This document shows, in pieces, positions 48,248 through 59,504 of a stretch of 64,000 nt of DNA. Positions within the stretch are counted from its first letter, which is position 1, and each line of letters begins with the position of its first letter. The notes under the pieces were generated by a model that made no database searches, was not told where the DNA came from, and saw only the letters and a list, made by a program, of their open reading frames with translations. A program made the translations under genes and the position numbers. This stretch comes from Nitrosococcus halophilus Nc 4 (GTDB lineage Bacteria; Pseudomonadota; Gammaproteobacteria; Nitrosococcales; Nitrosococcaceae): contig NC_013960.1 in assembly GCF_000024725.1 (NCBI RefSeq), positions 310,001-374,000 on the forward strand, in the 5' to 3' direction.

Positions 48248-48715
48248 ATGGTGAGTGCCCAATCAAGCATCGTGATAGTTCGACCCGTCGATGATGTATT
48301 CCAATTTATATCGGTAAATTTTTTCCAGAATTATCCTAAATGGTCTCCTGAGGTCGTAGAGCTAGAGAAGCTTTCTGACGGACCGGTAAAAGTGGGCACC
48401 CTGGGAAGGCAAGTCAGGAACGATCAGGGGCGCCGCACCGAGTCGACATTTCGCGTCACCCGATTCGAACCTAATCAGTGTTTTTCCTGTGAGGGCACTG
48501 CCCAGACCCCTTTTCGGGTGATTTACAATTTTGAATCTCTCGACCAAGCGACAAAGGTTAAATTTACCTTCGAATTATTAAAGATTGATTTTTTTATGCG
48601 GCCATTTGAAAAGCTTATTGAGGCGGCTATCCGGGGAGGAGCGGACAGAGTAGTGCACAATTTGAAGGGACTGCTCGAAGAAGAAGCCACAGGGCCTTCA
48701 GGTTCTGCCAAATAA
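48248..48715 (+). CDS. SRPBCC (START-like) family protein
   Basis: 155 residues. N-terminal SSIVIVRPVDDVFQFISVNF, then WSPEVVELEKLSDGPVKVGT, LGRQVRNDQGRR, FEPNQCFSCEGTAQTPFRVI, the helix-grip fold of polyketide-cyclase/dehydrase-like lipid or ligand binding proteins. GGAGG precedes the ATG. The ligand is unknown. It is 98 bp upstream of the LOV gene, in the same direction. Confidence 0.85.
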   Translation: MVSAQSSIVIVRPVDDVFQFISVNFFQNYPKWSPEVVELEKLSDGPVKVGTLGRQVRNDQGRRTESTFRVTRFEPNQCFSCEGTAQTPFRVIYNFESLDQATKVKFTFELLKIDFFMRPFEKLIEAAIRGGADRVVHNLKGLLEEEATGPSGSAK

Positions 48716-48813
48716 ATTTTATGGGTTGTCCTTAGGCCTGGGAAGGCCAATACCATTATCAGAGAGCCATTCCGGGGCGGCGAAGTACTCGTTTCGGAAA
48801 GAGGAGAAAAGCG

Positions 48814-49263
48814 ATGTCATTTATCGTTGAAAAAGATGAGGGGCTTATACCTCGGGTTTTATCGCAAATCTTGGATTCCTGTGTAAACGGAGTTTCATTA
48901 ACTGATCCCGATCAGGAAGATAACCCTCTTGTGTATGTCAATGAAGCCTTTGAAAAAATAACCGGCTATAAAAAAGAGGAAATTCTCGGTAAGAATTGTC
49001 GTTTCTTGCAAGGTAACGATAGGGATCAGGAGGAAGTCAAACGTCTCAGAGAAGCTATTCAAAATCGGGTTCCCATTGAGGTGGACATAAGAAATTACAA
49101 AAAAAATGGCGAGCTTTTTTACAATCACCTCGCCGTCAATCCGGTATTCGATCAAGATGGCAACCTGCTTTATTTTTTAGGGATACAATATGATGTGACA
49201 AAGCAAGTCCTTGCAGAGCAGGAAATAGAAAAACTTCGCCAGCTCTTGGGAGAGAAAACTTAA
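48814..49263 (+). CDS. short LOV-domain blue-light photoreceptor
   Basis: 149 residues consisting of one LOV (PAS) domain and a C-terminal helix. The flavin-adduct motif GKNCRFLQG is present with Cys62; the other LOV residues are in place: NEAFEKITGY, RNYKKNGELFYNHLAVNPV (N94, N104) and LGIQYDVTKQ (Q125). The C-terminal helix (QEIEKLRQLLGEK) may dimerise. With no fused output domain it belongs to the short-LOV group, so signal output must pass through a partner. GGAG precedes the ATG. Confidence 0.93.
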   Translation: MSFIVEKDEGLIPRVLSQILDSCVNGVSLTDPDQEDNPLVYVNEAFEKITGYKKEEILGKNCRFLQGNDRDQEEVKRLREAIQNRVPIEVDIRNYKKNGELFYNHLAVNPVFDQDGNLLYFLGIQYDVTKQVLAEQEIEKLRQLLGEKT

Positions 49264-49389: not shown

Positions 49390-50013
49390 ATGGGCGAAAA
49401 TCGTCGGCACTCAGAATTGGTAACTCGCTCCGGGTTACGGCCCTTTTTTTATGATTCCGTACAAGATGCGATTGAAAATCAGCATGTGAAAGCGGATGAA
49501 GCAACAATTTTTTATTTGGTTAATCTCCTCACTGATTTCTCCCGTTCAGAAAAAGTTTTTGACTATACCCAGGAAGGGCCTGTCCTACGGCCCTTGGCGG
49601 AACTGTATGGATTTGCGGTGGAGGCCGCCTCCCAGAGTGAACGTAAACTTATACTGCAACGTTTAGGCGATGTGGCGTTGTTTATTTCTGGGCTTTTTTC
49701 CGGCTACTTTCATCGACGGTTGGTGGATGTGGACTACTACATCGCCATGGGGGGGAGCGCCTACGCTTATCTTTATGACGCTAAGGGCCGAAACCCAAGA
49801 GAGCAAGCCCTAGCGACGATTTTCCGACAGCTCTCCCAACAATTTGTGCAGTTCGTGGATGTGTTGGCGGAAGTCGGTGAAAATGCTTTCGGTTCAAGCG
49901 AGCAGGATATTTTTGAACTCTATGAATTATGGGCAAAGACGGGCAGCCCCCGCCTTGAACGTAAACTAAGAGGCTTTGGTGTTAACCCACAACATTTTGG
50001 ACCGGTCCATTAG
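49390..50013 (+). CDS. conserved hypothetical protein, first of an uncharacterised pair
   Basis: 207 residues, no family recognised. Soluble and mostly helical: EATIFYLVNLLTDFSRSEKV, LILQRLGDVALFISGLFSGY, FHRRLVDVDYYIAMGGSAYA, EQDIFELYELWAKTGSPRLE. Tyr/Phe-rich in the middle. The next gene starts 8 bp after its stop, so the two are co-transcribed. They follow the LOV gene by 126 bp. Confidence 0.8.
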   Translation: MGENRRHSELVTRSGLRPFFYDSVQDAIENQHVKADEATIFYLVNLLTDFSRSEKVFDYTQEGPVLRPLAELYGFAVEAASQSERKLILQRLGDVALFISGLFSGYFHRRLVDVDYYIAMGGSAYAYLYDAKGRNPREQALATIFRQLSQQFVQFVDVLAEVGENAFGSSEQDIFELYELWAKTGSPRLERKLRGFGVNPQHFGPVH

Positions 50014-50021
50014 AGGCAATT

Positions 50022-50678
50022 GTGGATTTGAATGCCCTTCAAGCCCAGCTTGAGCATATTTATGATGTTCGCACCTACTGTCGGGTAGAAGATTTCCTAG
50101 TTACAGACCCGGCTATAGTGGTTGAACTCACGGAGGCTTCTGGAAGCGGGCAAACCCCTTCGATGGAATCGCTCTTGATTCGGCAGGGTGAGGATAATCT
50201 TGATCTCGCTTTATATCTCGATCAGGAACTACTTGACCAACTGGGGCGTGATAATCCCACAGAATTGCTTCATGATGGCAATCTGGCAGAATTTTGGTTT
50301 GCCCTTGAAGGAGTAAGTCATTTTCTTTATCTTGCTTGGAATGCGGGTTTTGAGCGCACAGTGACGCAATTAGAACTCGAACTCCAAGCTGAAATTGATA
50401 AGTGCGTACTGACTGCAGCATTGGTTTATCATCAACGGGGAATAGTCGATATGCGATTACTAAGGCGTGTGCTTTTTGAAGAAACACGCCTACGTGATGG
50501 ACTTGATAATGTCCAACAGCAGCGGTACCGAGAAGCCAACCGTCTTGCTGCCCGCTATTGCGGTGTGCTTGAGGAGAAGTATTCACTTATTCCTAAAAAT
50601 TCATATTTAGTCAATGAATTACGGCGTTTTTATCGAATGCCTCAAAGCCATAAGATCCGTCATATTCGAGTGGTTTGA
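50022..50678 (+). CDS. conserved hypothetical protein, second of an uncharacterised pair
   Basis: 218 residues, GTG start with AGAGG upstream. No family recognised. Mixed fold: VRTYCRVEDFLVTDPAIVVE, DNLDLALYLDQELLDQLG, FWFALEGVSHFLYLAWNAGF, LELELQAEIDKCVLTAALVY, then basic C-terminus (RRFYRMPQSHKIRHIRVV). The LDLALYLDQELL and FWFALEGVSHF parts suggest a conserved core. Coupled to the gene upstream. Confidence 0.8.
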   Translation: MDLNALQAQLEHIYDVRTYCRVEDFLVTDPAIVVELTEASGSGQTPSMESLLIRQGEDNLDLALYLDQELLDQLGRDNPTELLHDGNLAEFWFALEGVSHFLYLAWNAGFERTVTQLELELQAEIDKCVLTAALVYHQRGIVDMRLLRRVLFEETRLRDGLDNVQQQRYREANRLAARYCGVLEEKYSLIPKNSYLVNELRRFYRMPQSHKIRHIRVV

Positions 50679-53143: not shown

Positions 53144-54565
53144 CCTTGAAGGAGTGCCTGGATGCACGACGCCCCCCTAGCGAGAGTGCGAAGTGAAACG
53201 GCGCGTCGAGCGCGAGGGCCGATTACTCGCGTTTGGCCATGAATTCGCGTTTTGCGTAGTTGGCCAGCCCTTGAGTACTCTTTTGCCATAGGCGACAGTT
53301 GTGGCATGATGGCTGCGTGGTAACGCAACGGGCCTACAAATTCAGGTTTTACCCTACGCCCACGCAAAAGCGGCAATTGGCCATTGAATTCGGCCATACC
53401 CGCTATGTGTGGAATTGGGCATTGGAAAGGCGAACGAAGGCGTATAAAGCGCAGGGCGAGTCGCTGAACACTATCAGCCTCAGCCGCCAATTGACGGTAC
53501 TGAAGCAAACGGAATGCCCTTGGCTGAGCGAAGCCACCGCCAGTTGCCATACCCAAAAACTGAGGGACCAAGATAGGGCGTTTAAAAACTTCTTCGCCGG
53601 TCGGGGCAAGTATCCCCGCTTTAAGAGACGCCATCAGACCCAATCGGTACGCTATCAATTGGACCAGCGCCATGTGGCGAAGAATTTCAACGCCGAAAGC
53701 AAGTTGTTGAAGCTGCCAAAGCTTGGGGCGCTTAAGCTGAAATGGTCTCGCAGGATGATGGGTATCCCCAAAATGGTGACGGTCAGTAAAGACCCCGCTG
53801 GCCGTTATTTTGTCAGCATGGCCTGTGAGGTGGAGATTGCCGCTCTGCCTGCCCGCAAGAACGCTGTTGGGGTGGATGTGGGGGTTAAGGATGTGGTGGT
53901 GACCTCTAGCGGGGATAAGTCCGGCGCGCCTAAATACACTTACCAGTACGCACGGCAATTGAAAAAGGCTCAGCGTCGCTTGAACAAAAAGAAGAAAGGA
54001 TCTCAGCGTCGCCGCCGGCAACAGCAACGGGTGGCCCGAATTCATGCCCGGATAACGGATAGCCGCCGGGATTTTCTGAACCAACAATCCTCGAAGCTGA
54101 TTAACGAGAACCAAGTAATTTGTCTTGAGGATTTGAATATCAAAGGGATGTTGAGAAATCGCCGCCTGAGTAAAGCCGTCGCGGATTGCGGGCTGTACGA
54201 ACTCAGGCGACAAATCGAGTGCAAGGCCAAATGGTATGGCCGCGAGGTATTGATCGTGGACCGTTGGGCGCCCACCAGCAAGAGGTGCTCTGAGTGCGGG
54301 ACTATTCAAGAGTCCATGCCGCTCAAAGTTCGCGAGTGGGAATGCCCGGACTGTGGAACGGAGCACGACCGGGATATTAACGCGGCCAAGAATGTTTTGA
54401 TGTTGGGTACGGCGGGGAGCGCCGGAACCGATAAAGCGCGTGGAGCGGTGAAGACCCCAAGGGCCGTGGCCTAGCCACCGCCCGAGGACTGCTGAGAAAC
54501 GCGAATTCTCCAGGCTGACAAGGGGAGGAGGGACCGAACCGCAGTCAGTCATGGCGAAACTCCAA
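53144..54565 (+). mobile_element. TnpB-only IS200/IS605 (IS1341-type) element, copy 2
   Basis: 1,422 bp, the same length as copy 1 (39165-40586), starting CCTTGAAGGAGTGCCTGGA and ending GGCGAAACTCCAA. Inserted between the PI-synthase-like gene and ino1, in the opposite orientation. The 3' flank that would serve as guide starts ATTCACACCGTTGGCTTGAG. Confidence 0.85.
53317..54474 (+). CDS. tnpB: RNA-guided endonuclease TnpB, copy 2
   Basis: 385 residues, starting at GTG 53317 where copy 1 has ATG. RuvC residues and zinc ribbon are identical to copy 1. Differences cluster in one patch (LGALKLKWSRRMMGIPK versus LGTLKLKWSQRMGGIPK, DNA 53717-53781) and at the C-terminus (LMLGTAGSAG versus LRWGTAGSAE). 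Otherwise nearly identical. Likely functional by motif content. Confidence 0.94.
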   Translation: MVTQRAYKFRFYPTPTQKRQLAIEFGHTRYVWNWALERRTKAYKAQGESLNTISLSRQLTVLKQTECPWLSEATASCHTQKLRDQDRAFKNFFAGRGKYPRFKRRHQTQSVRYQLDQRHVAKNFNAESKLLKLPKLGALKLKWSRRMMGIPKMVTVSKDPAGRYFVSMACEVEIAALPARKNAVGVDVGVKDVVVTSSGDKSGAPKYTYQYARQLKKAQRRLNKKKKGSQRRRRQQQRVARIHARITDSRRDFLNQQSSKLINENQVICLEDLNIKGMLRNRRLSKAVADCGLYELRRQIECKAKWYGREVLIVDRWAPTSKRCSECGTIQESMPLKVREWECPDCGTEHDRDINAAKNVLMLGTAGSAGTDKARGAVKTPRAVA

Positions 54566-57405: not shown

Positions 57406-57551
57406 TCTTTTATGGCTGTCCACTACAGTTATTTTGGCAATATACCTTTAAATCCCTATTTGATCCATGTTAGTGATGCTTTTCCTTGGGTAGAGGGAGG
57501 GACGGGTTTTGGCGGTAAAAAATAAGCTTGGAATTTTAGGAGATTGGATTG

Positions 57552-59504
57552 ATGTTAATCGGAGAAGACACCGAAGTGCCGGCAAATCAGGATAAGGATG
57601 AGCAGAATTCTGACTTGGCCACCGATAAGCAGCGTGATACGGCGGCCCAGAGGTTAGCAGCGATTGTCGAGTCTTCCGAAGATGCCATTATCAGTAAGAC
57701 ACTCGATGGCACTATTATTAGTTGGAATGCCGCTGCCGAACAAATATATGGCTATACCGCCGAGGAAATTTGCGGTCAATCCATTGCTATTCTTGTGCCT
57801 CCCGATCGACATGATGAGATACCGCAAATTCTTCAGCACATTCGGCGCGGCGAGCGCATTAAACAGTTCGAGACAGTGCGCGTGCGGAAGGACGGCAGGA
57901 AAATTTATGTTTCTCTTACTATTTCACCCATCAAGGATAACCAGGGCCATATTGTGGGAGCCGCGACCATTGCTCGCGATATTACCCGGCGCAAACAAAG
58001 AGAGGAAAAGCTGTTGTGGCTATCCCGTGCCCTGGAGCAGAGCCCGGTTGCGGTCACCATTACAGATACTGTAGGCAATATTAAGTATGTCAATGCTAAA
58101 TTTACGGAATTGACCGGTTACCCCAAAGAAGAGGTTATTGGGAAAAATCCGCGAATCTTGCAATCAGGGAAAACCCCTATTGAAGAATATCAGCGACTCT
58201 GGGAAAGCATTACTTCAGGAGGTGAATGGCAAGGAGAGATACAAGACAAAAAAAAGAATGGGGAAATTTATTGGGTCCGGGAACATATTTCACCTATTAA
58301 GAATCCCCAAGGTGAAATTACCCATTTTCTCGCTATTGGGGAGGATATTTCCGAGCGTAAACAGATTGAACAGGCCCTTCAGGAGAGCGAAGAAAGGTTT
58401 CGCCAGGTGGCCAGGATGACCGGCGAATGGATATGGGAACAAGATCCCTCGGGACATTTTACCTATTGCAGTGGAGCAGTTAAGGAAATACTGGGGTATG
58501 AACCCAAGGAAATGCTTGGCAAGCATTACTGTGAGTTTTTTACCCCGGAGGCCCAGGAGAGTGGGGTCTGTAAGAGTCCAGATGAGAAACGGTTCTTCCG
58601 CTTCATCAGTCACTATCTCCACAAGGATGGCCATGAGGTTTTTGCGGAGTCCAGTGGTGAACCCATTCTTGATGAGCAAGGCCGAATTATCAAGTGGCTG
58701 GGGGTGGATCGAGACATTACCCAACAGCTTGAAGCCCAGGAATTGATCCGACGGTCTCAAATAAGTCTCGCGGTGGCACGCAATGAATTGAGGATCGCAC
58801 GGCAGATCCAAGAATCTTTGCTGCCCACGGAGCCTTTGATTCTACCCGAAGTTGAGGTTGTCGGTTATTGCCTGCCCGCCTCCCAAGTGGGAGGAGACTA
58901 TTTTGATTATTACCATCGGCCTGATCACAGAGTGGATGTGGCCATTGCTGATGTTTCCGGACATTCCGTGGGACCTGCCCTGTTTATGGTCGAAACCCGC
59001 AGCGCATTGAAAGCGCAAATTCGATCAAAATTTACTGCTGCCAATACCCTGGCGGCTTTGAATGACTCACTTTATGAAGATTTAAATCGGGCTGATCACT
59101 TCATTACGATGTTCTATATGCAATACCATATTGGGACGGGAGAAATCAATTATGCCAGTGCCGGCCATAACCCCCCTCTGCTATTACGTGGTGACGGAGC
59201 AAGATGCACCAAGCTCGAGGCGGACGGGTTGATTTTTGGGGTTAAAAAAGAGGTTTCCTTTGAGGAGAAGAGAACCTTTTTGGAAAAAGGGGACATTATG
59301 TTCCTTTATACGGATGGCATCATAGAAGCAGAGAGTAAGCAGGGCGAATTTTTTGGTATCAAGCGTTTATGTAAGATACTTATGACCAATCGGCACCTTG
59401 CTCCCCAAGATCTCATTAAGGTCGTGGTAAAAAATTTACAGGATTTCTGTGAAAGCAAGACTTTCAAAGATGATGTGACGATGGTGGTCTTAAAAACAAT
59501 CTGA
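57552..59504 (+). CDS. triple-PAS sensor with SpoIIE/RsbU-type PP2C phosphatase output
   Basis: 650 residues. PAS 1 at about 35-155 (IVESSEDAIISKTLDGTIIS), PAS 2 at about 165-280 (YVNAKFTELTGYPKEEVIGK), PAS 3 at about 290-410 (ITGEWIWEQDPSGHFTY-like WEQDPSGHFTYCSGAVKEIL), a linker helix, then the PP2C SpoIIE domain from about 425 (ARQIQESLLPTEP, SQVGGDYFDYY, VAIADVSGHSVGPALFM, YASAGHNPPLLL, LYTDGIIEAE, DDVTMVVL). It should dephosphorylate an anti-sigma-factor antagonist or similar; no partner is next to it. ATG 57552 has AGGAG upstream. Confidence 0.92.
   Translation: MLIGEDTEVPANQDKDEQNSDLATDKQRDTAAQRLAAIVESSEDAIISKTLDGTIISWNAAAEQIYGYTAEEICGQSIAILVPPDRHDEIPQILQHIRRGERIKQFETVRVRKDGRKIYVSLTISPIKDNQGHIVGAATIARDITRRKQREEKLLWLSRALEQSPVAVTITDTVGNIKYVNAKFTELTGYPKEEVIGKNPRILQSGKTPIEEYQRLWESITSGGEWQGEIQDKKKNGEIYWVREHISPIKNPQGEITHFLAIGEDISERKQIEQALQESEERFRQVARMTGEWIWEQDPSGHFTYCSGAVKEILGYEPKEMLGKHYCEFFTPEAQESGVCKSPDEKRFFRFISHYLHKDGHEVFAESSGEPILDEQGRIIKWLGVDRDITQQLEAQELIRRSQISLAVARNELRIARQIQESLLPTEPLILPEVEVVGYCLPASQVGGDYFDYYHRPDHRVDVAIADVSGHSVGPALFMVETRSALKAQIRSKFTAANTLAALNDSLYEDLNRADHFITMFYMQYHIGTGEINYASAGHNPPLLLRGDGARCTKLEADGLIFGVKKEVSFEEKRTFLEKGDIMFLYTDGIIEAESKQGEFFGIKRLCKILMTNRHLAPQDLIKVVVKNLQDFCESKTFKDDVTMVVLKTI

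Follow-up and report, generated by a model that had tools for sequence, protein, structure and literature searches.

The 64,000-nucleotide stretch of Nitrosococcus halophilus Nc 4 DNA analysed here (the window) encodes a short LOV protein that almost certainly works as a blue-light sensor, with flavin binding and a photocycle predicted from its sequence, and the partner of this sensor is probably the START/SRPBCC protein encoded directly upstream. LOV domains and short LOVs are already known; what seems new is a LOV family with a probable new class of partner and a guild-biased distribution. The literature searched, in which subscription journals were scarcely covered, yielded no paper that connects LOV with SRPBCC proteins, with ammonia oxidisers or with methanotrophs, so this negative is not proof of novelty. 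Light damages key enzymes of ammonia- and methane-oxidising bacteria. Reports that it inhibits nitrification go back decades, and the effect is usually put down to ammonia monooxygenase being passively damaged. Most Nitrosomonadaceae genomes and about half of the Methylococcales genomes sampled encode the LOV; were it a dedicated blue-light sensor, these bacteria would be measuring light and answering it.

The LOV protein and its locus

The locus comprises the following features:

48248..48715, + strand: START/SRPBCC (Polyketide_cyc2) gene, proposed LOV partner; 155 aa, stop 98 bases before the LOV start
48716..48813, + strand: intergenic stretch between the SRPBCC and LOV genes, holding the LOV ribosome-binding site
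48814..49263, + strand: short LOV protein gene; 149 aa, with N-cap helix, LOV/PAS core and C-terminal J-alpha helix
48988..49014, + strand: flavin-adduct motif GKNCRFLQG; Cys62 codon TGT at 48997-48999

The LOV reading frame opens with an ATG at 48814 and runs through its stop codon to 49263 on the forward strand, with AGAGGAGA about 10 bases 5' of the start. No terminator-like site was reported in the intergenic stretch; the promoter and terminator scan performed at chance level. An earlier note on this DNA had described a short LOV with a complete adduct motif and without an output domain, and both points held, as did its other details that sequence can check: Cys62 lies within GKNCRFLQG, the full motif is conserved among orthologues, and PAS is the sole Pfam domain of the 149-aa protein (PAS_9, 1.8e-23). 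The AlphaFold2 model (pLDDT 86) consists of the N-cap helix (residues 11-21), the PAS core and the J-alpha helix (129-148); as expected of a short LOV, no output or effector domain was found in this model or by Pfam. The best NCBIfam model is YtvA_fam (NF052652; 3.5e-51), matched over profile positions 2-128 of 243 at 174.1 bits, below the curated cut-off of 250 bits, and the closest PDB match is the YtvA LOV domain (2.1e-36). Because Pfam, NCBIfam and PDB all return such matches, the LOV identity is not due to chance. Bacillus YtvA, a LOV-STAS protein, is thus the closest solved relative of this domain, but it carries a STAS output domain whereas the window LOV has none.

The flavin-contacting residues R63, Q66, R79, N94, N104 and Q125 are all present, with no insertion or deletion relative to AsLOV2. 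The earlier note had singled out N94, N104 and Q125; these fall at C+32, C+42 and C+63, the AsLOV2 spacing, and their register is confirmed without gaps. N61, C62, R63 and N94 are invariant across 84 LOV orthologues, N104 and Q125 are kept in every one of the 84 that has a residue at the site, and Q66 in 83 of them. The gene is retained in all four Nitrosococcus genomes, the other three proteins being 84-96% identical. The host was taken in the earlier note for an ammonia-oxidiser-like chemolithotroph, and it is an ammonia oxidiser, in agreement with the amoA gene found in the same genome (G000:C2:683282), about 325 kb from the LOV locus.

Boundaries and distribution of the LOV family

By sequence, the window LOV is a member of a distinct LOV family, sharing 51-73% identity with members outside the genus and separated from other LOVs by a clear score gap. 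Among 84,980 species genomes, a scan seeded from query peptides, and hence biased to close relatives, gave a top 80 of relatives at 56-73% identity, nearly all from Nitrosomonas, Nitrosospira, Methylococcaceae or Methylocystis, with unclassified MAGs making up the remainder. Because of the seeding bias, whole genomes were also sampled with the full LOV protein as query. The resulting scores were bimodal: family members reached at least about 164 bits and aligned from residue 1-3, while other LOVs scored 147 bits or less, their alignments nearly always starting at residue 7 or later (one borderline match of 135 bits was seen, in G799). The hallmark of the family is a conserved N-cap, MxFxVEKDxGLIPxxLxxILDxCVNG, and in the tree a single branch splits 47 family members from 15 other LOVs (SH-aLRT 93). 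A plasmid collection held just other LOVs, at less than 60% identity.

The family occurs mostly in ammonia oxidisers and methanotrophs, a link that is strong but not exclusive. It was found in 86 of 110 Nitrosomonadaceae genomes and, counting matches of about 165 bits or more, in 71 of 151 from Methylococcales. Among the 149 Beijerinckiaceae genomes, five carry it: four have pmoA and one is recorded as Methylocystaceae, which corresponds to 4/11 pmoA-positive against 1/138 pmoA-negative genomes (Fisher 8e-5, uncorrected for relatedness). Six of the 369 sampled Gammaproteobacteria genomes have a family LOV, three of them with amoA/pmoA, or 3/11 positive against 3/358 negative genomes (Fisher 4e-4, likewise uncorrected for relatedness), and it was present in one of 385 Alphaproteobacteria genomes. 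The monooxygenase also occurs without the family LOV, in 8/11 positive genomes of the gammaproteobacterial sample and 7/11 of the Beijerinckiaceae sample.

A restriction to monooxygenase bacteria was considered and rejected. The LOV-SRPBCC pair is not exclusive to them, since amoA/pmoA was not detected in three carriers, namely G387 and G497, which belong to one genus, and the incomplete G574. In the first two, both complete genomes of that gammaproteobacterial genus, the pair lies at G387:C4:303528-304434 and G497:C13:53758-54662; a LuxR-family-like gene stands upstream of it in G387. For draft genomes, amoA was also abandoned as a marker: PF02461 was detected in only 26 of 48 LOV-bearing genomes, and those that escaped detection include established ammonia oxidisers (Nitrosospira briensis, for example), which makes absence of amoA from drafts weak evidence. 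The LOV tree joins Nitrosococcus with the beta ammonia oxidisers and the SRPBCC tree joins it with G387/G497/G574. An AU test of the two trees does not reject a shared Nitrosococcus placement (p 0.21), and we therefore do not claim transfer of either gene.

The upstream START/SRPBCC protein

That a LOV protein without an output domain must act through a partner was proposed in the earlier note, which named no candidate; the proposal gains strength because a strictly co-encoded one lies directly upstream. Pfam places this protein in Polyketide_cyc2 (PF10604; 8.2e-16, 59 bits against a cut-off of 27.4), and its predicted model (pLDDT 93.5) has a helix-grip fold. The best fold matches are PYR/PYL hormone receptors (Z ~18, rmsd ~2 A over ~142 residues, 10-16% identity), in a list dominated by PYLs, which are over-represented in the PDB; fold similarity alone is no proof of function, and any ligand or phosphatase link like that of the abscisic-acid receptors would be hypothetical.

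The gene neighbourhood argues for a partnership. In all 78 LOV relatives with enough flanking sequence, the gene immediately upstream and in the same orientation is an SRPBCC homologue, at a gap of 5-424 bp (median 56.5), and the same arrangement is seen in all four Nitrosococcus genomes. Every stand-alone family LOV read from whole genomes adjoins an SRPBCC gene, while none of 15 LOV genes examined outside the family has such a neighbour. Presence of the two genes also coincides at the level of genomes: all nine genomes that have a family LOV of the stand-alone kind also have the SRPBCC gene, which was absent from 15/15 amoA/pmoA-positive genomes lacking the LOV (one weak match of 3.8e-4) and from 4/4 genomes carrying other short LOVs. 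In Methylotuvimicrobium buryatense, a genetically tractable methanotroph, the pair is tandemly duplicated (L094 4624-7194).

The SRPBCC family evidently works without LOV as well, since N. halophilus has three further paralogues, none with a LOV neighbour. One of them, 94% identical, lies about 100 kb away (G000:C2:458680-459144; L166 8681-9151) and is followed after about 2.2 kb by an OlsE-like fatty acid hydroxylase gene of the kind found beside the methanotroph pair. The other two copies are more distant.

Proposed mechanism and alternatives

We think it fairly probable that LOV and SRPBCC form a two-protein blue-light switch that protects the cell, and probably its membrane monooxygenase, from blue light or photo-oxidative damage. 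FMN would bind the LOV core, and blue light would drive formation of the Cys62-flavin adduct, upon which the N-cap and J-alpha helices would rearrange and so alter the contact of LOV with the SRPBCC protein in a putative complex. PmSB-LOV binds the product of its neighbouring gene, PmlR2, under illumination (PMC9758184), and on this model such a change of contact on adduct formation is most likely. The SRPBCC fold offers a pocket for a hydrophobic ligand and serves in plants as a signalling receptor (PYR/PYL); the output of the switch would shield the cell as described. Ammonia oxidisers are inhibited by blue-green light (PMC9797979), and the same paper cites work on protein synthesis in N. 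europaea as it recovers after light has inactivated its ammonia monooxygenase, in keeping with a role of the pair in protection or repair. If this is true, short LOVs would have a partner of a new kind, with a START fold, and the two together might serve as a bipartite optogenetic switch.

The nearest known system is PmSB-LOV/PmlR2 of Pseudomonas mendocina (with the short LOVs PpSB1/PpSB2), which likewise combines an effector-less LOV of ~148 aa with an adjacent partner gene (PMC9758184); its partner, however, is a MerR/LitR DNA-binding repressor, whereas the candidate here is a START/SRPBCC protein. No class II LitR (MerR) gene adjoins the window LOV, whose neighbours are the SRPBCC gene and two genes without a family match. 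Other short LOVs examined are 39-48% identical to it and have no SRPBCC neighbour. DsLOV, LdaP and RsLOV of phototrophic Alphaproteobacteria also rely on other proteins for signalling and have effects on photo-oxidative or pigment genes (PMC4335406, PMC10890935), but the hosts of the present family are mostly not phototrophic and the gene context differs.

The protein might instead be an ordinary short LOV that targets a regulator encoded elsewhere, as with PmlR2/LitR and PpsR, the SRPBCC protein being a co-transcribed effector or a passenger. Known short-LOV targets are regulators (PMC9758184, PMC10890935), and the family's own fusion partner in alphaproteobacterial methanotrophs is an AraC regulator. 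We nevertheless regard this reading as unlikely: a passenger would not persist directly upstream in 78/78 loci from three proteobacterial groups while the other neighbours change, nor would it be duplicated together with LOV, and no regulator is conserved beside the pair.

Less likely again is that a membrane lipid is the ligand of the SRPBCC protein, which would work together with an OlsE-like fatty acid hydroxylase, so that LOV would tune a lipid or quinone enzyme or carrier and light would remodel the membranes that house the monooxygenase. Many methanotrophs do have an FA_hydroxylase gene (PF04116) next to the pair, and in the present genome one accompanies the 94%-identical SRPBCC copy; yet neither the pair of Nitrosomonas nor that of the window has one as a neighbour, and the lipid ligand is an assumption. 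We give still less credence to LOV as mainly a flavin redox or oxygen sensor for oxic-anoxic interfaces, its light sensitivity being incidental. LOV carriers inhabit opposing oxygen gradients, many of them in dark sediment or sludge, and the gene ahead of the pair in Nitrosomonas resembles an NAD(P)/FAD oxidoreductase; against this, a pure redox role needs no adduct cysteine, which is invariant in 84/84 orthologues, and MsrPQ neighbours suggest oxidative repair. The two-protein light switch remains our preferred reading.

The AraC-LOV branch of alphaproteobacterial methanotrophs

Four Beijerinckiaceae methanotroph genomes encode a DJ-1/PfpI-AraC regulator that ends in a family LOV. These fused copies do not lie beside an SRPBCC gene; they are divergent from ftsH followed by pmoC in all three genomes with enough flanking sequence, and ftsH was confirmed in the fourth. 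The loci are:

L141, 6533-11102: AraC-LOV, ftsH and lone pmoC
L143, 6222-10757: AraC-LOV, ftsH and lone pmoC
L144, 6646-11218: AraC-LOV, ftsH and lone pmoC
L114: AraC-LOV and ftsH

No pmoA was found near the pmoC copies of these loci. A direct repeat, TTTGGC-N15-TTTGGC (half-sites 21 bp apart), is conserved in 4/4 of the AraC-LOV/ftsH intergenic regions, against a chance expectation of 0.01 in a 14-kb locus; it was not found upstream of the examined main pmoCAB operons, nor in the window. The AraC-LOV gene beside ftsH and a lone pmoC is a concrete, testable gene set. On the other side of AraC-LOV in L141 lies a LuxR/LuxI quorum-sensing pair.

The link to light-sensitive metabolism drawn in the earlier note is strengthened by the family distribution and by the position of AraC-LOV next to ftsH-pmoC, an arrangement that belongs to the AraC-fused branch and not to the window LOV. 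A broader reading, which we advance only tentatively, is that bacteria with copper membrane monooxygenases share a guild-specific light-protection system, in which LOV with its START partner (or fused to AraC) would sense blue light and so set going the protection and repair of the light-sensitive ammonia/methane monooxygenase, with proteolysis by FtsH and substitution of the C subunit. Such repair would resemble that of photosystem II in plants and cyanobacteria. The notion that light controls monooxygenase repair by FtsH and a spare C subunit rests on the AraC-LOV branch, and for the window LOV it is a hypothesis.

Other neighbours of the pair

The remaining neighbours of the SRPBCC-LOV pair vary by lineage. 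The downstream genes at 49390-50013 and 50022-50678 were rejected as partners, having no Pfam or NCBIfam match and being conserved only within Nitrosococcus; their homologues stand beside LOV in 0/80 other loci. An FAD oxidoreductase was likewise discarded as an obligatory third partner, being found in just 3/32 genomes tested and in no Nitrosococcus. MsrP/MsrQ and the OlsE-like hydroxylase are frequent beside the pair in methanotrophs, and in one Nitrosomonas MAG (L029 6001-11386) the pair leads into genes for a PAS histidine kinase and a response regulator, then a lone amoC and an AmoD/E-like gene.

Elsewhere in the window, positions 57549-59504 encode a 651-aa multi-PAS protein, genus-conserved near LOV, whose PAS domains resemble the LOV domain at 35% identity or less. 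A TnpB/OrfB-like gene of an IS200/IS605-type element (53299-54474) separates genes that the closest relative (L137) has almost side by side, and looks like a recent insertion.
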